Program-made: the position numbers and the translations under genes
In this document: positions 3,001 through 62,499 of the stretch, one piece after another
Numbering within the stretch: position 1 is the stretch's first letter
Layout: each line of letters opens with the position of its first letter
The notes under the pieces: model-generated
What the model was told of the DNA's origin: nothing
Databases searched by the model: none
The model's input: the letters and a program-made list of their open reading frames with translations, nothing else
DNA from: Oscillospiraceae bacterium
Lineage (GTDB): Bacteria; Bacillota; Clostridia; Oscillospirales; Ruminococcaceae
Length of the DNA stretch: 64,000 nt
Assembly: GCA_017427265.1 (NCBI GenBank)
Contig: JAFRTG010000021.1
Location: 62,001 to 126,000, forward strand
Direction of reading: 5' to 3'

Positions 3001-3156
3001 GTACAGCTGAAGGATGTCGCGCTCGGCAGCGGCCTGGCAGAGTTCGGAAGCGACCTGTTCGTCGGCTGCGACGCGCTGAAAACCGTAACCGCACCGGAAG
3101 GCTCCAAGGCAGCCGAATGGTGCAGCAAAAACGGCTTCGGCAAATCGTCCACATAA
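1..3156 (+). CDS. BspA-like leucine-rich repeat surface protein, 5' truncated by the window
   Basis: The frame is open from the first base, so the start and any signal peptide lie outside the window; 1051 residues are visible. They consist of tandem LRR_5 (BspA/Treponema type) repeats of about 23 residues with the signature CxxLxxIxLPxSLxxIgxxAFxxC. A Thr-rich linker at about residues 430-460 separates an N-terminal from a C-terminal repeat block, and a partly non-repeat stretch follows at about 740-860. Such proteins are normally exported and mediate adhesion or protein binding. No dockerin or LPXTG sorting motif is seen at the C terminus, which ends in a normal repeat followed by a short Lys/Ser tail. 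A perfect hairpin terminator follows. The ligand cannot be deduced. Confidence 0.9.
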   Translation, partial: VVVNRYAFGGCSSIKKINFAGTARTATLSESCFSGTGIEEIALPENATAIANSMFQGCASLKTAVIPPTVTSIGENAFSGCGALESVEIPASVTYIGQNAFSSEKALKNLTFADDSQLRTVMDYAFRYCEALEELDLTNVSASFGSYVFGGCKSLKNIKLPKKMTLLPNSIFSNCTALEEIELPESLRELGSQAFSGAAALKSIQLPEHLNRIDARCFEGCESLETITFPESLHIIANDAFSGCTKLNHVKIGPAVSYLGSGVFSECTALNDITLPTSMSVVPDMLFKGCTALKSIVLPETLTSIGSEAFMNSGIQKIEIPDSVTTINYQAFEGCEALTEVKLPQGLVNLYFRAFFGCKALKSLTLPDDVQYISRQCFEESGIQSLALPANICTLEENTFAKNIKLTAPKDSVTAETLTENKISFTETAPVTQITTTGTTGTGTTETTTVTTTTVVTTTQYDENTLVDKSSGVIFRYYLNSNYLTVIGCDKEKEEIVVPQTYNGRNVTSVDSYAFRGITAKSVSLPQTITSLNSGMFMDAKNLEKVTFSSAITYIPDKCFSGCESLVSVPTESITSINSYAFENCKSLDIGVWPALDYISNGAFMGCESLTSFKFSPRLTYINSYCFMGCKSLKNIELPYSLDYISDSAFCDCTALEKIAIPDTCRNIYSAAFRGCTSLKEVKLPRQLSYITYETFGDCTALKEITIPKGVENLYSGIFRGCTALEKVYIENEERFYLNEDVFTDCPSLKYVKCPAQYFYTSEYCVGYVRDENGNRVPGKNKVLMECYPNYYSNRMIKAGVVTYKPIGIDYHVDEATDTVCVDYIHSPEFYSENSVYVPAEIEGKPVMTLGSGKPVMAGDCLYSYVYIPSTLKYIGDYAFMNCEKFSSLNYTDEMNLESIGLQAFYGTAAQKSAESSHSSLTFGKIFYRCFSAEETFKVSDYYTTIAADAFAHNSSIKTVEIPENVLVIGDGAFYDCASLEQVTVSDTVTALGSGAFVNCVQLKDVALGSGLAEFGSDLFVGCDALKTVTAPEGSKAAEWCSKNGFGKSST

Positions 3157-59293: not shown

Positions 59294-59464
59294 AAAAACT
59301 GCTGAAATATTGACCTTGTGCATTGTGACAGAATCAGATGCATTCATGGCCGAAAGATGACCGTCGCCCAGCCTGCCGTAACATATCGTTTTTGCAGCGT
59401 ATCAAGCTGAAGCGTCGAAGCACTGGCATCATTCGGGACACAGTGCGTTCTGAACGAAAAGTAG

Positions 59465-59511
59465 AATATACCACCGGTTTACTTGACATTTCCGTTCGGG
59501 TGTGTTATAAT
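59465..59511 (+). promoter_or_regulatory. Promoter of small-ORF cassette A
   Basis: TTGACA (59483-59488), 17 bases, TATAAT (59506-59511). Bases 59465-59490 are identical to 61546-61571 of cassette B. Confidence 0.92.
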
Positions 59512-59585
59512 GCAGACAACATCAGACATGAACAGCCGGAAACCGGCTGCTGCGCTGAGATCTTATTTGAAAGGAGTTGCCGAGA

Positions 59586-59726
59586 ATGACACGTTTCGCT
59601 ATGAACAATCTGTACAGCCACAGTGAATATTACCTGCTAAGCCTCTATCTGGAAGAGACTCTAATTGTGCTGCATACAGATCGTAGTGGACGTGTCGGAA
59701 CGACCGGCATGCGCATTTCAGGATAG
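59586..59726 (+). CDS. Small ORF A (46 residues), paralogue of the ORF at 61650
   Basis: A 46-residue reading frame with a strong AAAGGAG ribosome site, its own consensus promoter and its own terminator. The N terminus is MTRFAMNNLY, the middle aromatic and acidic (SEYYLL, LEE), and the C terminus VLHTDRSGRVGTTGMRISG. The ORF at 61650 has the same architecture: EY near residue 14, an EE pair, VL[HR]T about 17 residues from the end and a final G. No signal peptide, Cys or metal motif. It might encode a small regulator or a leader peptide, or mark a small RNA. Unrecognised. Confidence 0.6.
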   Translation: MTRFAMNNLYSHSEYYLLSLYLEETLIVLHTDRSGRVGTTGMRISG

Positions 59727-59751
59727 CCTTTTTGTATGATCCCTGAAACGA

Positions 59752-59790
59752 AACACCGTCTGTATGCATAGATACAGGCGGTGTTTTTTA
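59752..59790 (+). terminator. Terminator of cassette A
   Basis: AACACCGTCTGTAT pairs with ATACAGGCGGTGTT (one G-U), then TTTTTTAT. It ends two bases before the Leu-like tRNA. Confidence 0.92.
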
Positions 59791-59791
59791 T

Positions 59792-59864
59792 GTCCGTGTG
59801 GTGGAATGGCAGACACACCCGGCTAAGAACCGGCACACTGAGGGTTCGACTCCCTCCACGGAGA
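59792..59864 (+). tRNA. tRNA-Leu-like gene (AAG loop), short variable arm, possibly degenerate
   Basis: D-arm GTGGTGGAATGGCAGACAC is Leu-like. The anticodon loop CTAAGAA sits on a 4-bp CCGG/CCGG stem and reads AAG. The T arm GAGGG-TTCGACT-CCCTC is intact. The long variable arm of class II tRNA-Leu is missing (about five bases), and acceptor position 1-72 is G-G. It could be a pseudogene or an unusual tRNA. Confidence 0.6.
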
Positions 59865-59868
59865 TTAT

Positions 59869-59968
59869 GGCGGATTCGTCTAGCGGGCAGTGCCCGCAGC
59901 CATTGATCTAAAGATCTCCGGAGAGGTTGCTTGTTTCAAAGACTTGTATCTCTCCGGAAGGAGTCCGC
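59869..59968 (+). pseudogene. tRNA-like 5' half joined to the dispersed palindrome
   Basis: GGCGGATTCGTCTAGCGG resembles the acceptor and D arm of a Glu/Gln-type tRNA. It runs into GCGGGCAGTGCCCGC (59883-59897) and AGCCATTGATCTAAAG. AGTCCGC at 59962-59968 can still pair with GCGGATT at 59870-59876 as an acceptor stem. No anticodon or T arm is recognisable between them. Confidence 0.6.
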
Positions 59969-59974
59969 AAATAT

Positions 59975-60065
59975 GGGCAAGTATGCATAGCGGCGATTGC
60001 AGCGGACTGTAAATCCGCCACCCATGCGGTAAACACCGTAGGTTCAATTCCTACCTTGCCCACCA
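59975..60065 (+). tRNA. tRNA-Tyr (GTA)
   Basis: Acceptor GGGCAAG with CTTGCCC, anticodon stem GCGGA/TCCGC with loop CTGTAAA, long variable arm, T loop TTCAATT, and encoded CCA. Confidence 0.95.
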
Positions 60066-60068
60066 TTC

Positions 60069-60161
60069 GGTCGCATAAGCCTAACTGGAAAGGCAGCTGT
60101 TTGCTAAACAGTCAGTAGCCGTGTTTTTCGCGGTGTCCGGGTTCGACTCCCGGTGTGACCG
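60069..60161 (+). tRNA. tRNA-Ser (GCT)
   Basis: Acceptor GGTCGCA with TGTGACC, anticodon loop TGCTAAA, long variable arm (GCCGTGTTTTTCGCGGT), and T arm CCGGG-TTCGACT-CCCGG. No CCA encoded. Confidence 0.92.
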
Positions 60162-60173
60162 TTCAAAACAATG

Positions 60174-60200
60174 AAGGGGTGTCCACGGCGGACACCCCTT
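60174..60200. terminator. Terminator between tRNA-Ser and the methyltransferase gene
   Basis: An 11-bp perfect stem, AAGGGGTGTCC with GGACACCCCTT. Serves both strands. Confidence 0.85.
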
Positions 60201-60205
60201 TGTAT

Positions 60206-60844
60206 TTACGCATGGATTATTTCATACTTCTGATAGTCAATCCTGACCAGCGCTTTCCCGTTTGGCAGGGATACAGATGCACGCAGAATCTCAGAGTAGC
60301 CGATCTCCTGCATTGCTACGGAAAGTGCTGCTTCTTCCATCTGGTGATGCACCTCGTCCAGCCGGTCAAATGCGTGGAGATACGGCGATTCGGAAACCCA
60401 TTGTTCCGTATCCGTGTTAATCTGAATCACGCAGGAAACATATTCCGGATCAACCTGCAAAACAGCCCTCTGAAATGCCGGATACCCGATATATTCGATC
60501 AGCAGATTGGCAATCACAAGCTGTGCCTGCGGCAGCTGTTCCGCGTCGTGCACAAGGTCAAGATGCAGGCATTGCAGCATGCCCGAAAGCTGCGGATACC
60601 GCTCCCGCACCGCCGCAAGATATGCGCTGTTGATATCCACACCATAGACGCGCCGGTATTTGTCCGTGCGAATGTGTTCCAGTCCGTTTCCGCCGGCAAC
60701 GCCGAGAACCATTGCCGTTTCGACCGGATATGCTGCAAACTGCGCTTTCATAATTTCGTTCATTGCCTGAAGCTGTTTCACCGTATCCAGCCGCATATGG
60801 TTTTCATAGTCGTCAAGGCTGATTTCTTCCCATGGATTGTTCAT
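60206..60844 (-). CDS. Class I SAM-dependent methyltransferase
   Basis: 212 residues, ATG after GAAAGGGG. Motif I is MVLGVAGGNGLEHI (about 45-58), motif II VYGVDIN (acidic residue for SAM ribose), and a motif IV-like LVIANLLIEYIGY (about 108-120). The C-terminal beta hairpin ends LPNGKALVRIDY. The substrate is unknown. The gene lies alone on the minus strand inside the tRNA island, with its own promoter. Confidence 0.85.
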   Translation of the reverse strand: MNNPWEEISLDDYENHMRLDTVKQLQAMNEIMKAQFAAYPVETAMVLGVAGGNGLEHIRTDKYRRVYGVDINSAYLAAVRERYPQLSGMLQCLHLDLVHDAEQLPQAQLVIANLLIEYIGYPAFQRAVLQVDPEYVSCVIQINTDTEQWVSESPYLHAFDRLDEVHHQMEEAALSVAMQEIGYSEILRASVSLPNGKALVRIDYQKYEIIHA

Positions 60845-60871
60845 GATAAGCCCCTTTCATTTCTTATCCTC

Positions 60872-60900
60872 ATTATAACATAACTTTTATTGAAATTCAA
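60872..60900 (-). promoter_or_regulatory. Methyltransferase promoter
   Basis: Minus strand: TTGAAT (60895-60900), 17 bases, TATAAT (60872-60877). Confidence 0.8.
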
Positions 60901-61017
60901 GACAGTGACTTATTCTACGAAGCGTGCATTGAAGCTGCACTGCTTGCTGAGCTGCACTCGCCGATGATTCCGGAAGATCTCTATGCGGCAATCTGCAACG
61001 GTGAAGTCAAGGTCTGA
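60901..61017 (+). pseudogene. C-terminal remnant of an unidentified gene
   Basis: A 38-codon open stretch ending at TGA 61015, with GC content and codons like real coding DNA (YEACIEAALLAELHSP, then PEDLYAAICNGEVKV), but with no start codon or ribosome site upstream. The methyltransferase promoter occupies the bases before it. It looks like the last part of a deleted gene. Confidence 0.45.
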
Positions 61018-61079
61018 TCAAACGATAGGCTGAGTCGGTATTTTGTATTGTTTGCAGCCCCGTTTTTGTTTTATTCCTT

Positions 61080-61108
61080 TTGCATTTGCAGATATTCCGT
61101 GCTATAAT
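61080..61108 (+). promoter_or_regulatory. Promoter of the 119-residue hypothetical gene
   Basis: TTGCAT, 17 bases, TATAAT, 70 bases before the start at 61178. Confidence 0.7.
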
Positions 61109-61177
61109 GAGGGTACAGTCCCGGCTGCAAACGAAGATTTACCTTTGAGGTACGGATGAGGAAGGACGTGTGGCAAC

Positions 61178-61537
61178 ATGAATGCAAATGATGTAAATTA
61201 CAGCGATATTTATTCGGTGCTTAAACTTTTGACAGGAAACTGTTATGTGCCGGGTACTGACTCTCCGATGGACAGACCGCCGGAGCTTCCGGTAGATACT
61301 CTCCGGATTGTGCGCGGTTATGTATATAAGCATCCCGAAAACAAGGATGTATTTGAACAAGCGCTTTACAAAATGGGAAACAGCTCCGTCGATCATGTCT
61401 ATTTATTTTTTGATTTCGTTGATGCTTGTTTGTTCTGCGAGATGCACAAGAAAACTGCGCCGTTTCATATTGACCAGCAGTTTCTGCTGCCGCAGCTGAA
61501 TCCTATGCCGTTCAATCCGGGACACAGTGAATCCTGA
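61178..61537 (+). CDS. Hypothetical protein
   Basis: 119 residues. The ATG is preceded by GAGGAAGGACG at some distance. Soluble, with VNYSDIYSVLKLLTGNCYVPG at the N terminus (in part), a central LPVDTLRIVRGYVYKHPENKDVFEQAL region and a Cys-rich FVDACLFCEMHKK helix. Not recognised. It ends 8 bases before the conserved promoter block of cassette B, so the two transcription units are adjacent. Confidence 0.65.
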   Translation: MNANDVNYSDIYSVLKLLTGNCYVPGTDSPMDRPPELPVDTLRIVRGYVYKHPENKDVFEQALYKMGNSSVDHVYLFFDFVDACLFCEMHKKTAPFHIDQQFLLPQLNPMPFNPGHSES

Positions 61538-61545
61538 ATCTAAAA

Positions 61546-61592
61546 AATATACCACCGGTTTACTTGACATTCCCGGCAAGGTATGCTATAAT
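61546..61592 (+). promoter_or_regulatory. Promoter of small-ORF cassette B
   Basis: TTGACA (61564-61569), 17 bases, TATAAT (61587-61592). Its first 26 bases equal those of cassette A, including ACCACCGGTTTAC just upstream of the -35 box. Confidence 0.92.
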
Positions 61593-61649
61593 GTGCTCAA
61601 CGCAGGGCAAAAAGCCCGCGAAATTTTGACTAATGAAAGGGTGAAAACA

Positions 61650-61793
61650 ATGAACGCGATGAGAACCAACGCAATGTATCTGTATGTCTTTGAATACCAG
61701 CAATTTCGCTTTTTTCTTCAGCAAGAAGAGGAGAGTGCCTTTGTGCTGCGCACAGGACATACAGGTGTTTGTTCAGCTGCCCTGACAGGGTGA
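61650..61793 (+). CDS. Small ORF B (47 residues), paralogue of the ORF at 59586
   Basis: Forty-seven residues after GAAAGGGTG. N terminus MNAMRTNAMYLYVFEY, a Gln/Glu-rich middle (FFLQQEEESA), and C terminus FVLRTGHTGVCSAALTG. It shares promoter, spacing, length and terminator type with ORF A but only scattered residues. An in-frame ATG at 61527 would extend it through the promoter and is not favoured. The XRE regulator gene follows its terminator. Unrecognised. Confidence 0.6.
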   Translation: MNAMRTNAMYLYVFEYQQFRFFLQQEEESAFVLRTGHTGVCSAALTG

Positions 61794-61832
61794 GATCGTG
61801 TTTCATTGTGAACCATCTTCTGATAGAACAAA

Positions 61833-61873
61833 ACCGTCTGTGTGCAGAACGTCAAGCACGCAGACGGTTTTTT
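61833..61873 (+). terminator. Terminator of cassette B
   Basis: ACCGTCTGTGTGC pairs with GCACGCAGACGGT (one G-U), then TTTTTTG. The CCGTCTGT arm is shared with cassette A. Confidence 0.92.
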
Positions 61874-61900
61874 GTATTCTGTCAGAAAGGTGGTATTTTT

Positions 61901-62131
61901 ATGTCTTCCGATACGCCGACGATAAACATGGCGGCGACCGGCGCAAATATCAAGGCGCTGATCAAAAACAAAGGGCTCAGGGTTGCCGATGTGCAAATCA
62001 GATGCGGCTTCAATACACCGCAAGCGATTTTCAAATGGATGCGCGGCGACGCAATGCCCTCGATCGACAACATGGTGATTCTTGCACATCTGCTGGATGT
62101 GACCATTGACAAGATCATCATTCTCAATTAA
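61901..62131 (+). CDS. XRE-family helix-turn-helix protein
   Basis: 76 residues from the ATG at 61901 after AGAAAGGTGG. The single domain is an HTH_3/XRE fold: GANIKALIKNKGLRVADVQIRCGF (in part), then TPQAIFKWMRGDAMPSIDNMVILAHLLDV. Such one-domain regulators bind operators as dimers. Its position right after cassette B makes that cassette, or its twin, a plausible target; this is inference. Confidence 0.88.
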   Translation: MSSDTPTINMAATGANIKALIKNKGLRVADVQIRCGFNTPQAIFKWMRGDAMPSIDNMVILAHLLDVTIDKIIILN

Positions 62132-62160
62132 AATGCTCCGCCCGATTTCGGGCGGCAGAA

Positions 62161-62223
62161 TTCCGCTTCGTCTAACGGCAGGACAGCGGGCAGTGCCCGC
62201 CTCCATTGATCTAAAGCCTGCCG
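62161..62223 (+). pseudogene. tRNA-Gln-like 5' half joined to the dispersed palindrome
   Basis: Bases 62161-62185 match the first 25 bases of the intact tRNA-Gln at 62430 with one change. They run directly into GCGGGCAGTGCCCGC (62186-62200) and CTCCATTGATCTAAAG. CCTGCCG at 62217-62223 pairs with CGGCAGG of the D arm. No anticodon, T arm or 3' acceptor strand follows. Confidence 0.7.
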
Positions 62224-62253: not shown

Positions 62254-62329
62254 GCCTCTGTAGCTCAGTCGGTAGAGCGCTGGTCTGAAGAACCGGTTGT
62301 CGCAAGTTCGATTCTTGCCGGAGGCACCA
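62254..62329 (+). tRNA. tRNA-Phe (GAA)
   Basis: Acceptor GCCTCTG with CGGAGGC, anticodon loop CTGAAGA, T loop TTCGATT, and encoded CCA. The palindromic repeat starts at the base after CCA. Confidence 0.95.
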
Positions 62330-62344: not shown

Positions 62345-62429
62345 ATCCAGAATAATGCTCATGAAGTATTATTTCTGTATCATCATTGTTGGATAATTGA
62401 AAATGATTGTTTCACCAATACATGATGCT

Positions 62430-62499
62430 TCCGTTTCGTCTAACGGCAGGACACCGGTCTTTGAAGCCGGGAATGGAAGTTCGAGTCTTCCAGCGGAAA
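62430..62499 (+). tRNA. tRNA-Gln (TTG)
   Basis: Acceptor TTCCGTT with AGCGGAA, anticodon stem CCGGT/GCCGG with loop CTTTGAA, and T arm GGAAG-TTCGAGT-CTTCC. No CCA encoded. Confidence 0.93.

Follow-up and report, generated by a model that had tools for sequence, protein, structure and literature searches.

We analyzed a 64,000-nucleotide (nt) stretch of the genome of an Oscillospiraceae bacterium (contig JAFRTG010000021.1, positions 62,001 to 126,000 of the forward strand; hereafter, the window), in which two short cassettes, A (59465-59789) and B (61546-61892), lie upstream of tRNA genes. The sequences of these cassettes and of their homologs indicate that they are very probably ribosome-mediated (leader-peptide) transcription attenuators that govern tRNA operons. 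Cassette A is followed by tRNA-Leu(AAG), tRNA-Tyr and tRNA-Ser, and cassette B by an XRE gene, tRNA-Phe and tRNA-Gln(TTG). The open reading frame (ORF) of cassette A is rich in Leu, Tyr and Ser and that of cassette B in Phe, Gln and Tyr. The composition of the ORFs thus mirrors the tRNAs downstream, suggesting that they encode leader peptides that spell the tRNAs that follow. A ribosome stalled in such a leader for lack of the cognate tRNAs would probably switch on a spare set of tRNAs.

Match between leader codons and downstream tRNAs

Pattern searches revealed homologous cassettes in the genus. Their leaders begin alike (MNAIMNN or M..F.M types) and have a V-L-R/H-T stretch in common, and the middle (core) is variable. 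Leaders were picked by a ribosome site, their length, the motif [VLM][LM][RHCY][TAQI] near the end and a TCTGT terminator motif; the tRNAs and the composition of the middle played no part in the picking. The sample comprised 53 distinct leaders of Ruminococcus and relatives, L081 and L134 among them. Tolerating tRNA gaps of at most 700 nt, at least one tRNA followed 48 of the 53, and these 48 formed 12 clusters. L075 (no terminator), L084 and L089 (contig ends within the cassette), L090 (failed the ribosome-site rule) and L276 (a later addition) were kept outside the sample. ARAGORN 'SeC' calls, one of which sits within the L076 leader ORF, were excluded from the isotype sets.

The mean fraction of core residues with the amino acid of an operon tRNA was 0.467 in the 12 clusters. 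Permutation of the amino-acid labels gave a mean of 0.166 (standard deviation 0.057, maximum 0.416) and swapping of the tRNA sets among the clusters a mean of 0.323 (standard deviation 0.036); the observed value was reached in none of 20,000 trials of either kind. When the clusters were merged by hand into seven super-groups, 3 of the 5,040 exact swaps reached the observed match (7 of 5,040 after normalization for set size), where the smallest possible count is above one because two super-groups share nearly the same tRNA set. With a match this far above the permutations, the control codons appear to be cognate to the tRNAs of the operon.

Leu made up 0.32 of the core in all three clusters with tRNA-Leu and did not exceed 0.10 in the nine without. 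Gln accounted for 0.12-0.17 in the six clusters with tRNA-Gln and for at most 0.04 in five of the six without, the exception (L073) carrying a truncated tRNA-Gln. Cys was present in the cores of all three tRNA-Cys clusters and of two of the nine others; His reached 0.10 and 0.04 in the two tRNA-His clusters (at most 0.05 in the ten without), and Phe at least 0.10 in the six tRNA-Phe clusters (0.14 in one of the six without). Further, whole leader types corresponded to whole arrays: Leu-rich leaders preceded Leu tRNAs (CAG/CAA/TAA/AAG), Q/F/C leaders a Gln-Cys-Phe-Gln array, S/E/H/Y leaders a Tyr-Glu-His-Ser array and L/S/E/Y leaders a Leu-Tyr-Glu-Ser array. Locus L094 of Ruminococcus flavefaciens carries a second tRNA group, Ser, His, Glu and Tyr. 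In two further genomes of the R. flavefaciens genus, the DNA 5' of Ser/His/Glu/Tyr groups contained MKQFTMVYLYSEHYEVSFYHESEEALIVLRTEHSG and MRQFTMIYLYSEHYEESFYHESEEALFVLHTDKRSG, the expected S/H/E/Y leader. Note that this leader was examined after its tRNAs were known; the expectation was formed before looking and recorded afterwards. The L074 core has no Arg despite a tRNA-Arg(GCG) in its array, which is itself an island Ser(GCT) body with another anticodon.

The choice of Ser codons pointed in the same direction. tRNA-Ser(GCT) reads AGY codons; cores whose own array includes it contained 68 AGY and 11 TCN codons, as compared with 51 AGY and 60 TCN in cores whose array lacks it and 40 AGY and 35 TCN outside the cores. 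All seven clusters with tRNA-Ser leaned toward AGY; among the five without, three leaned toward TCN and two toward AGY (L077 with 3 codons, L073 with 1). Because the sequences are related, this bias is support rather than proof.

Terminator and predicted antiterminator

An intrinsic terminator lies between the leader and the structural genes, as seen in the folds of the window and in the alignments of relatives (for the latter, the rule used for picking already included a terminator motif). The codons of the V-L-R/H-T stretch (CTGCGCACAG in B, CTGCATACAG in A), hereafter region 2, are complementary to the 5' arm of the terminator (CTGTGTGCAG, CTGTATGCA), hereafter arm 3. Over 22 distinct combinations, the pairing total of region 2 with arm 3 was 197, as compared with a shuffle mean of 191.4; 2 of 20,000 shuffles reached 197. 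Own partners paired at 8.95 of 10 positions on average and foreign partners at 8.69. In the alignments, 96.0% of the cells were paired in family A (25 sequences) and 94.3% in family B (28 sequences), with one-sided changes, and the two families differ from each other by a compensatory pair.

In the minimum free energy (MFE) folds of the whole leaders of A and B, the early CTGTAY codons formed a hairpin with the V-L region (1:2). When the upstream RNA was masked, as under a stalled ribosome, and arm 3 had just been made, the MFE structure was the 2:3 antiterminator in both A and B. The predicted pairings combine into the classical 1:2, 2:3 and 3:4 layout.

Covariation was uneven among the helices. 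The 5' untranslated region (UTR) helix of type A had 12 double-changed cells (3.4 in shuffles) and a covariation score above shuffles; its double-changed pairs numbered 3 as compared with 1.9 (101 of 500 shuffles as high), and its pair types were not above shuffles. The outer stem of type B had 4 double-changed cells as compared with 0.4 and exceeded shuffles on all measures except pair types (9 of 500). Covariation in the terminator stem of B was not above shuffles.

Structure of the cassettes in the window

The sequence-only reading of this DNA had described two cassettes with an identical 26-bp block, a -35 box, a 17-nt spacer, TATAAT, ORFs of 46 and 47 codons and hairpin terminators, and an XRE gene after cassette B. 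All of these elements were recovered (Table 1). That reading had passed over the match between leader codons and tRNAs, the attenuator hairpin and the homologous cassettes that precede tRNA arrays (and an RNA ligase) elsewhere. Conservation of the ORFs in relatives, on which it had staked its case beforehand, was found: in the genus as in R. flavefaciens, there are cassettes whose frame is open.

Table 1. Positions of the cassette elements, tRNAs and XRE gene in the window.
Feature	Position	Strand	Remarks
Promoter A	59465..59511	+	Conserved block that contains the imperfect palindrome TATACCACCGGTTTA and extends into the -35 box; TTGACA, 17 nt, TATAAT; block also in relatives
5' UTR hairpin A	59533..59549	+	CAGCCGG..CCGGCTG; window 5' UTR fold z -1.1
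Leader ORF A, 46 codons	59586..59726	+	Core NNLYSHSEYYLLSLYLEETLI with Leu/Tyr/Ser/Glu codons
Region 2 of A (predicted antiterminator 5' strand)	59670..59679	+	Within the V-L-H-T-D codons
Attenuator/terminator A (regions 3 and 4)	59754..59789	+	-22.5 kcal/mol, z -7.93; ends 1-2 nt 5' of tRNA-Leu
tRNA-Leu(AAG), 75 nt	59791..59865	+	Without a long variable arm
Glu-like tRNA 5' end	59869..59897	+	Followed directly by hairpin GCGGGCAGTGCCCGC
tRNA-Tyr(GTA)	59975..60065	+	Divergent second copy
tRNA-Ser(GCT)	60068..60162	+	Divergent second copy
Promoter B	61546..61592	+	Same block as promoter A; promoter score 12/12
5' UTR hairpin B	61601..61620	+	Fold z -2.39
Leader ORF B, 47 codons	61650..61793	+	Core NAMYLYVFEYQQFRFFLQQEEESAF with Phe/Gln/Tyr codons
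Region 1 of B, CTGTATGTC	61680..61688	+	Complementary to GACATACAG at 61756-61764; protector hairpin 1:2 in the MFE fold
Region 2 of B (predicted antiterminator 5' strand), CTGCGCACAG	61746..61755	+	Pairs with 61838-61847
Attenuator/terminator B	61819..61892	+	z -7.87; outer covarying stem extends to the XRE ribosome site
XRE-type helix-turn-helix protein, 76 amino acids	61901..62131	+	HTH_3, 32.8 bits (cut-off 23); after cassette B
3'-truncated tRNA-Gln	62161..62200	+	Followed directly by hairpin GCGGGCAGTGCCCGC; compare intact tRNA-Gln(CTG) in L072, L076 and L080
tRNA-Phe(GAA)	62254..62329	+	Divergent second copy
tRNA-Gln(TTG)	62429..62499	+	Divergent second copy

The identical block occupies 59465-59490 and 61546-61571. 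Within the window, ACCACCGGTTTAC occurs exactly twice; in the whole 3.8-Mb genome, CCACCGGTTTACTTGACA has 2 occurrences at up to 2 mismatches and four more at 3 mismatches. Both promoters scored 12/12 (TTGACA, 17-nt spacer, TATAAT), and no promoter-like site was found between ORF A and tRNA-Leu. The short ORFs, each with a ribosome site 3' of the promoter, look translated, as an attenuator leader requires. Peptides A and B are weakly alike (BLASTP E = 0.006), and the leader peptides had no match in Pfam or NCBIfam. A simple terminator scan of the window did not list hairpins A and B. We would guess that the XRE protein is a shared DNA-binding regulator, acting on the common promoter through the imperfect palindrome TATACCACCGGTTTA.

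The similarity between A and B also continues for about 30 bp 5' of the 26-bp block, at 59435-59453 and 61518-61536 (CGGGACACAGTG..CTGAA). In B, this upstream segment is the 3' end of a 119-amino-acid ORF (61178-61537) without a convincing family match.

Island tRNAs are divergent second copies

The genome gave 53 tRNA matches in total, and housekeeping Leu (CAA, CAG, GAG, TAA, TAG), Tyr, Ser, Phe and Gln tRNAs are located elsewhere in it. Identity of the window's island tRNAs to the closest housekeeping tRNA of their isotype was 0.62 (Leu), 0.63 (Tyr), 0.59 (Ser), 0.75 (Phe) and 0.61 (Gln). Island Leu tRNAs in the genus of the window are 73-78 nt long and the housekeeping ones of the window genome 82-88 nt, indicating that the former lack the long variable arm. 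Leu-anticodon tRNAs with a short variable region were seen in the arrays of L071, L073, L074, L081 and L082, AAG included, an anticodon absent from the housekeeping Leu tRNAs of the window genome.

Several island tRNAs are unusual in form. At about 3648-3690 of L073, as at 62161-62200 and 59869-59897 of the window, tRNAs (Gln, Glu-like) are cut after their 5' part and continue into the hairpin GCGGGCAGTGCCCGC and into CCATTGATCTAAAG; in L072, an intact tRNA-Gln has a hairpin and tail of this kind after it. At L074:3068-3163, the anticodon GCG sits in the body of the island Ser(GCT) tRNA; if seryl-tRNA synthetase charges this tRNA, it might insert Ser at an Arg codon. Another tRNA body (GCCTCCGTAACTCAA...) carries the anticodons TAT, TCA and TAC; it occurs at 3064-3136 and 3413-3485 of L083 and 3362-3434 of L082 (both in reverse strand numbering) and at L204:238-310. 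The GCCTCCGTAACTCAA tRNAs of L083 (TCA) and L204 (TAC) come immediately after the shared promoter; there is a long leader hairpin and no ORF for a leader peptide.

Distribution of the cassettes and association with an RNA ligase

In the wider family, a stricter pattern matched in 7 of 396 genomes; among these, G270 had no cassette and G007 had the promoter before a tRNA and no ORF. A scan of the species collection yielded 62 stretches, in which a leader was recognized by the parser in 27 and by eye in 2 more (L123, L134). All of these leaders lie on contigs titled Ruminococcus, Oscillospiraceae or Clostridiales, and several of the contigs overlap with the wider-family set. In a search anchored on the XRE protein, 31 of 120 genomes of the R. 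flavefaciens genus matched at E 1e-12. The leader peptide of the viral-contig stretch L257 is that of R. flavefaciens MA2007 (L126); in the L126 cassette, the XRE gene is cut short and no tRNA was found after it.

In L078, the leader and the XRE gene are followed by an RNA ligase, which scored 61.1 bits against PF09414 (RNA_ligase; above the cut-off of 27) and 139 bits (E 1.7e-40) against TIGR02306 (DRB0094), below the curated NCBIfam cut-off of 151.15. With this ligase as the query, matches, partial ones included, were found in 23 of 120 genomes of the R. flavefaciens genus and in 4 of 61 relatives. About 1.5 kb of upstream sequence was available for 20 of the 28 ligase loci, and 17 of these 20 had a leader upstream. 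In 14 of the 17, tRNAs lie in between, mostly Gln-Cys-Phe-Gln; note that many of the 17 loci are close relatives and that the ligase of L280 is broken. L277 and L285 have the ligase without a leader, and L278 has tRNAs, no leader in view and a broken ligase. The XRE gene of L276 is a remnant.

Stops were present in 4 of the 24 ligase places in the R. flavefaciens genus; the copies with stop codons are those of L278-L281. The window's own genome had no match to the L078 ligase at E 1e-20. Thus, the window contains only the tRNA part of this arrangement.

Discussion

We propose that RNA polymerase would initiate at the strong promoter and that, with translation of the leader unhindered or lacking altogether, it would halt at the hairpin 5' of the tRNAs. 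The middle of the leader seems to consist largely of codons for the amino acids of the downstream tRNAs. When these control codons cannot be read, the ribosome would stall there and leave the V-L-R/H-T codons free, which would then pair with the 5' arm of the terminator, and polymerase would continue into the tRNAs and, in type B, the XRE gene. The promoter, ORF, terminator and complementarity, and the agreement of leader residues with tRNA isotypes, can be read from the sequence itself; the stalling, the read-through and the signal are what we infer from it.

With regard to the signal, loss or damage of tRNAs, more than amino-acid hunger, has in our judgment an even chance of being correct. 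The reason is that what the switch would deliver is a second, divergent tRNA set serving the same amino acids, joined in relatives by an RNA ligase. Destruction of tRNAs would then cause stalling in the leader, and stalling would bring out divergent replacement tRNAs and, in some species, a ligase that mends the broken ones, a circuit that we regard as evenly poised between right and wrong. Lineages would keep their own sets (Leu/Tyr/Ser/Glu; Gln/Phe/Cys/Tyr; Tyr/Glu/His/Ser), with the leader rewritten to fit the array.

Several observations weigh against attenuation of the tRNA operons as proposed here. Neither the 25 aligned sequences of family A nor the 28 of family B contained a double change in region 2 and arm 3, and the complementarity of the two segments is partly built in, because V-L and TCTGT motifs were used to pick the leaders; the compensatory change between the families is not built in by these motifs. 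The full terminator was more stable than the enforced antiterminator by 9.7 kcal/mol in A and 7.4 kcal/mol in B, so that antitermination would have to be kinetic. The Glu, Ser and Tyr contents of the cores separate the clusters poorly, the match is weak in three clusters (L077, 0.15; L073, 0.21; L230, 0.15), and the C/F/Q leader of R. flavefaciens contains Tyr and Ser, yet no Tyr or Ser tRNA lies downstream. No tRNA was detected after 5 of the 53 leaders: L078 and L233, both followed by an RNA ligase, L079, L126, whose operon is disrupted, and L211, for which 831 bases were available. Finally, a promoter-like site (62106-62134; TTGACA-17-TAAAAT, 11/12) overlaps the end of the XRE coding sequence, 5' of tRNA-Phe, and could supply the tRNAs of B independently of the leader.

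The main rival concerning the signal holds that the same attenuators sense amino-acid shortage through uncharged tRNA and tune the second tRNA set to nutrition. We consider this possible, if doubtful. Classical leader-peptide attenuators respond to amino-acid supply, according to the excerpted text of PMC1183508, and a stalled ribosome could not distinguish an uncharged tRNA from a missing one. However, three to five amino acids are combined in most leader types, the tRNAs are diverged copies that share an operon with an RNA ligase in relatives, and additional tRNA would presumably be no cure for amino-acid hunger.

It is unlikely that the islands represent tRNA arrays of mobile or phage origin that are retained for codon supply and have the leader as their own control. 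The tRNA stretches of the islands matched 247 and 391 phage records, but these searches were run without a housekeeping tRNA control, and we therefore claim no phage origin. Further, only one of the nine viral-contig stretches with the promoter pattern (L257) carried the cassette; the other cassettes came from bacterial genome collections. It seems less likely still that each cassette is an independent terminated unit, producing a small RNA or small mRNA, beside tRNAs with promoters of their own. The strong terminators and the promoter-like site before the tRNAs of B would suit such a unit; in contrast, terminator A abuts tRNA-Leu, the complementarity of the antiterminator is maintained, and the isotype match would be left without a reason. 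Least probable of all is that the ORFs encode small trans-acting proteins, for instance ones that work with the XRE regulator. Many genomes do have the frame open and a good ribosome site before it, but the peptides of types A and B are barely alike, with C-termini that vary in length and sequence, and the conserved V-L-R/H-T codons are complementary to the terminator. The middle of the leader, moreover, varies as the tRNA content of the operon does, and for this last reason we set the explanation aside. Thus, of the roles that the sequence-only reading had offered, the leader peptide is supported, and the small regulatory protein and the small RNA are not favored.

Leader-peptide attenuation as such is well known from the trp and his leaders (PMC1183508, in excerpt) and has been reported in Firmicutes/bacilli for genes of the hisS family (PMC2965389, in excerpt). 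As far as these excerpts describe them, such leaders share with ours a short ORF with control codons, a competing antiterminator and terminator, and a terminator before the structural genes. They differ in that the structural genes here are tRNAs (with an XRE gene and, in relatives, an RNA ligase), that the control codons are mixed so as to fit several tRNAs, and that region 2 lies inside the ORF. In the RtcR-controlled rsr-yrlBA-rtcBA RNA repair operon, expression is tied to damaged tRNA and a CARF-domain protein binds tRNA fragments (PMC7790460, in excerpt). An RNA ligase in the operon and damaged tRNA as the proposed link are common to both; unlike in that system, a ribosome in the act of translation is the proposed sensor here, and spare tRNAs accompany a ligase of the PF09414/TIGR02306 type. 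Phage-encoded tRNA arrays have been proposed to resist anticodon nucleases of the host by replacing cleaved tRNAs (PMC10264068, in excerpt). Those arrays, so far as the excerpt goes, resemble the islands as clusters of divergent extra tRNAs for a subset of amino acids; the islands differ in that bacterial contigs carry them and that each array is preceded by a putative leader-peptide attenuator of its own.

The putative attenuators also differ from a further class of regulators. T-box riboswitches sense the charging of tRNA and antiterminate, whereas here sensing would be through a translated ORF and the output would be tRNA. Among Rfam families, only tRNA scored above the gathering score in the window; in five loci, no T-box matched (E up to 0.5), and the matches were to tRNA and otherwise weak and below threshold.

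In open PubMed Central text, which leaves subscription papers and preprints outside, we found no paper on leader-peptide attenuation of tRNA genes and none that joins attenuation with RNA repair in tRNA operons with matched leaders. We rate the tRNA operons with matched leaders as the new part, attenuation itself being known, and the tRNA-loss circuit as the bolder reading. If the proposed attenuation is correct, leader-peptide attenuation, a textbook mechanism for controlling amino-acid biosynthesis, would also control tRNA genes through leaders respelled to suit the tRNAs concerned, a direct feedback from decoding to tRNA supply, and a simple rule would apply: read the leader and name the tRNAs. 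If the tRNA-loss circuit holds as well, rumen bacteria would possess a sensor-to-repair circuit for tRNA damage, and this RNA ligase family would have a physiological setting.

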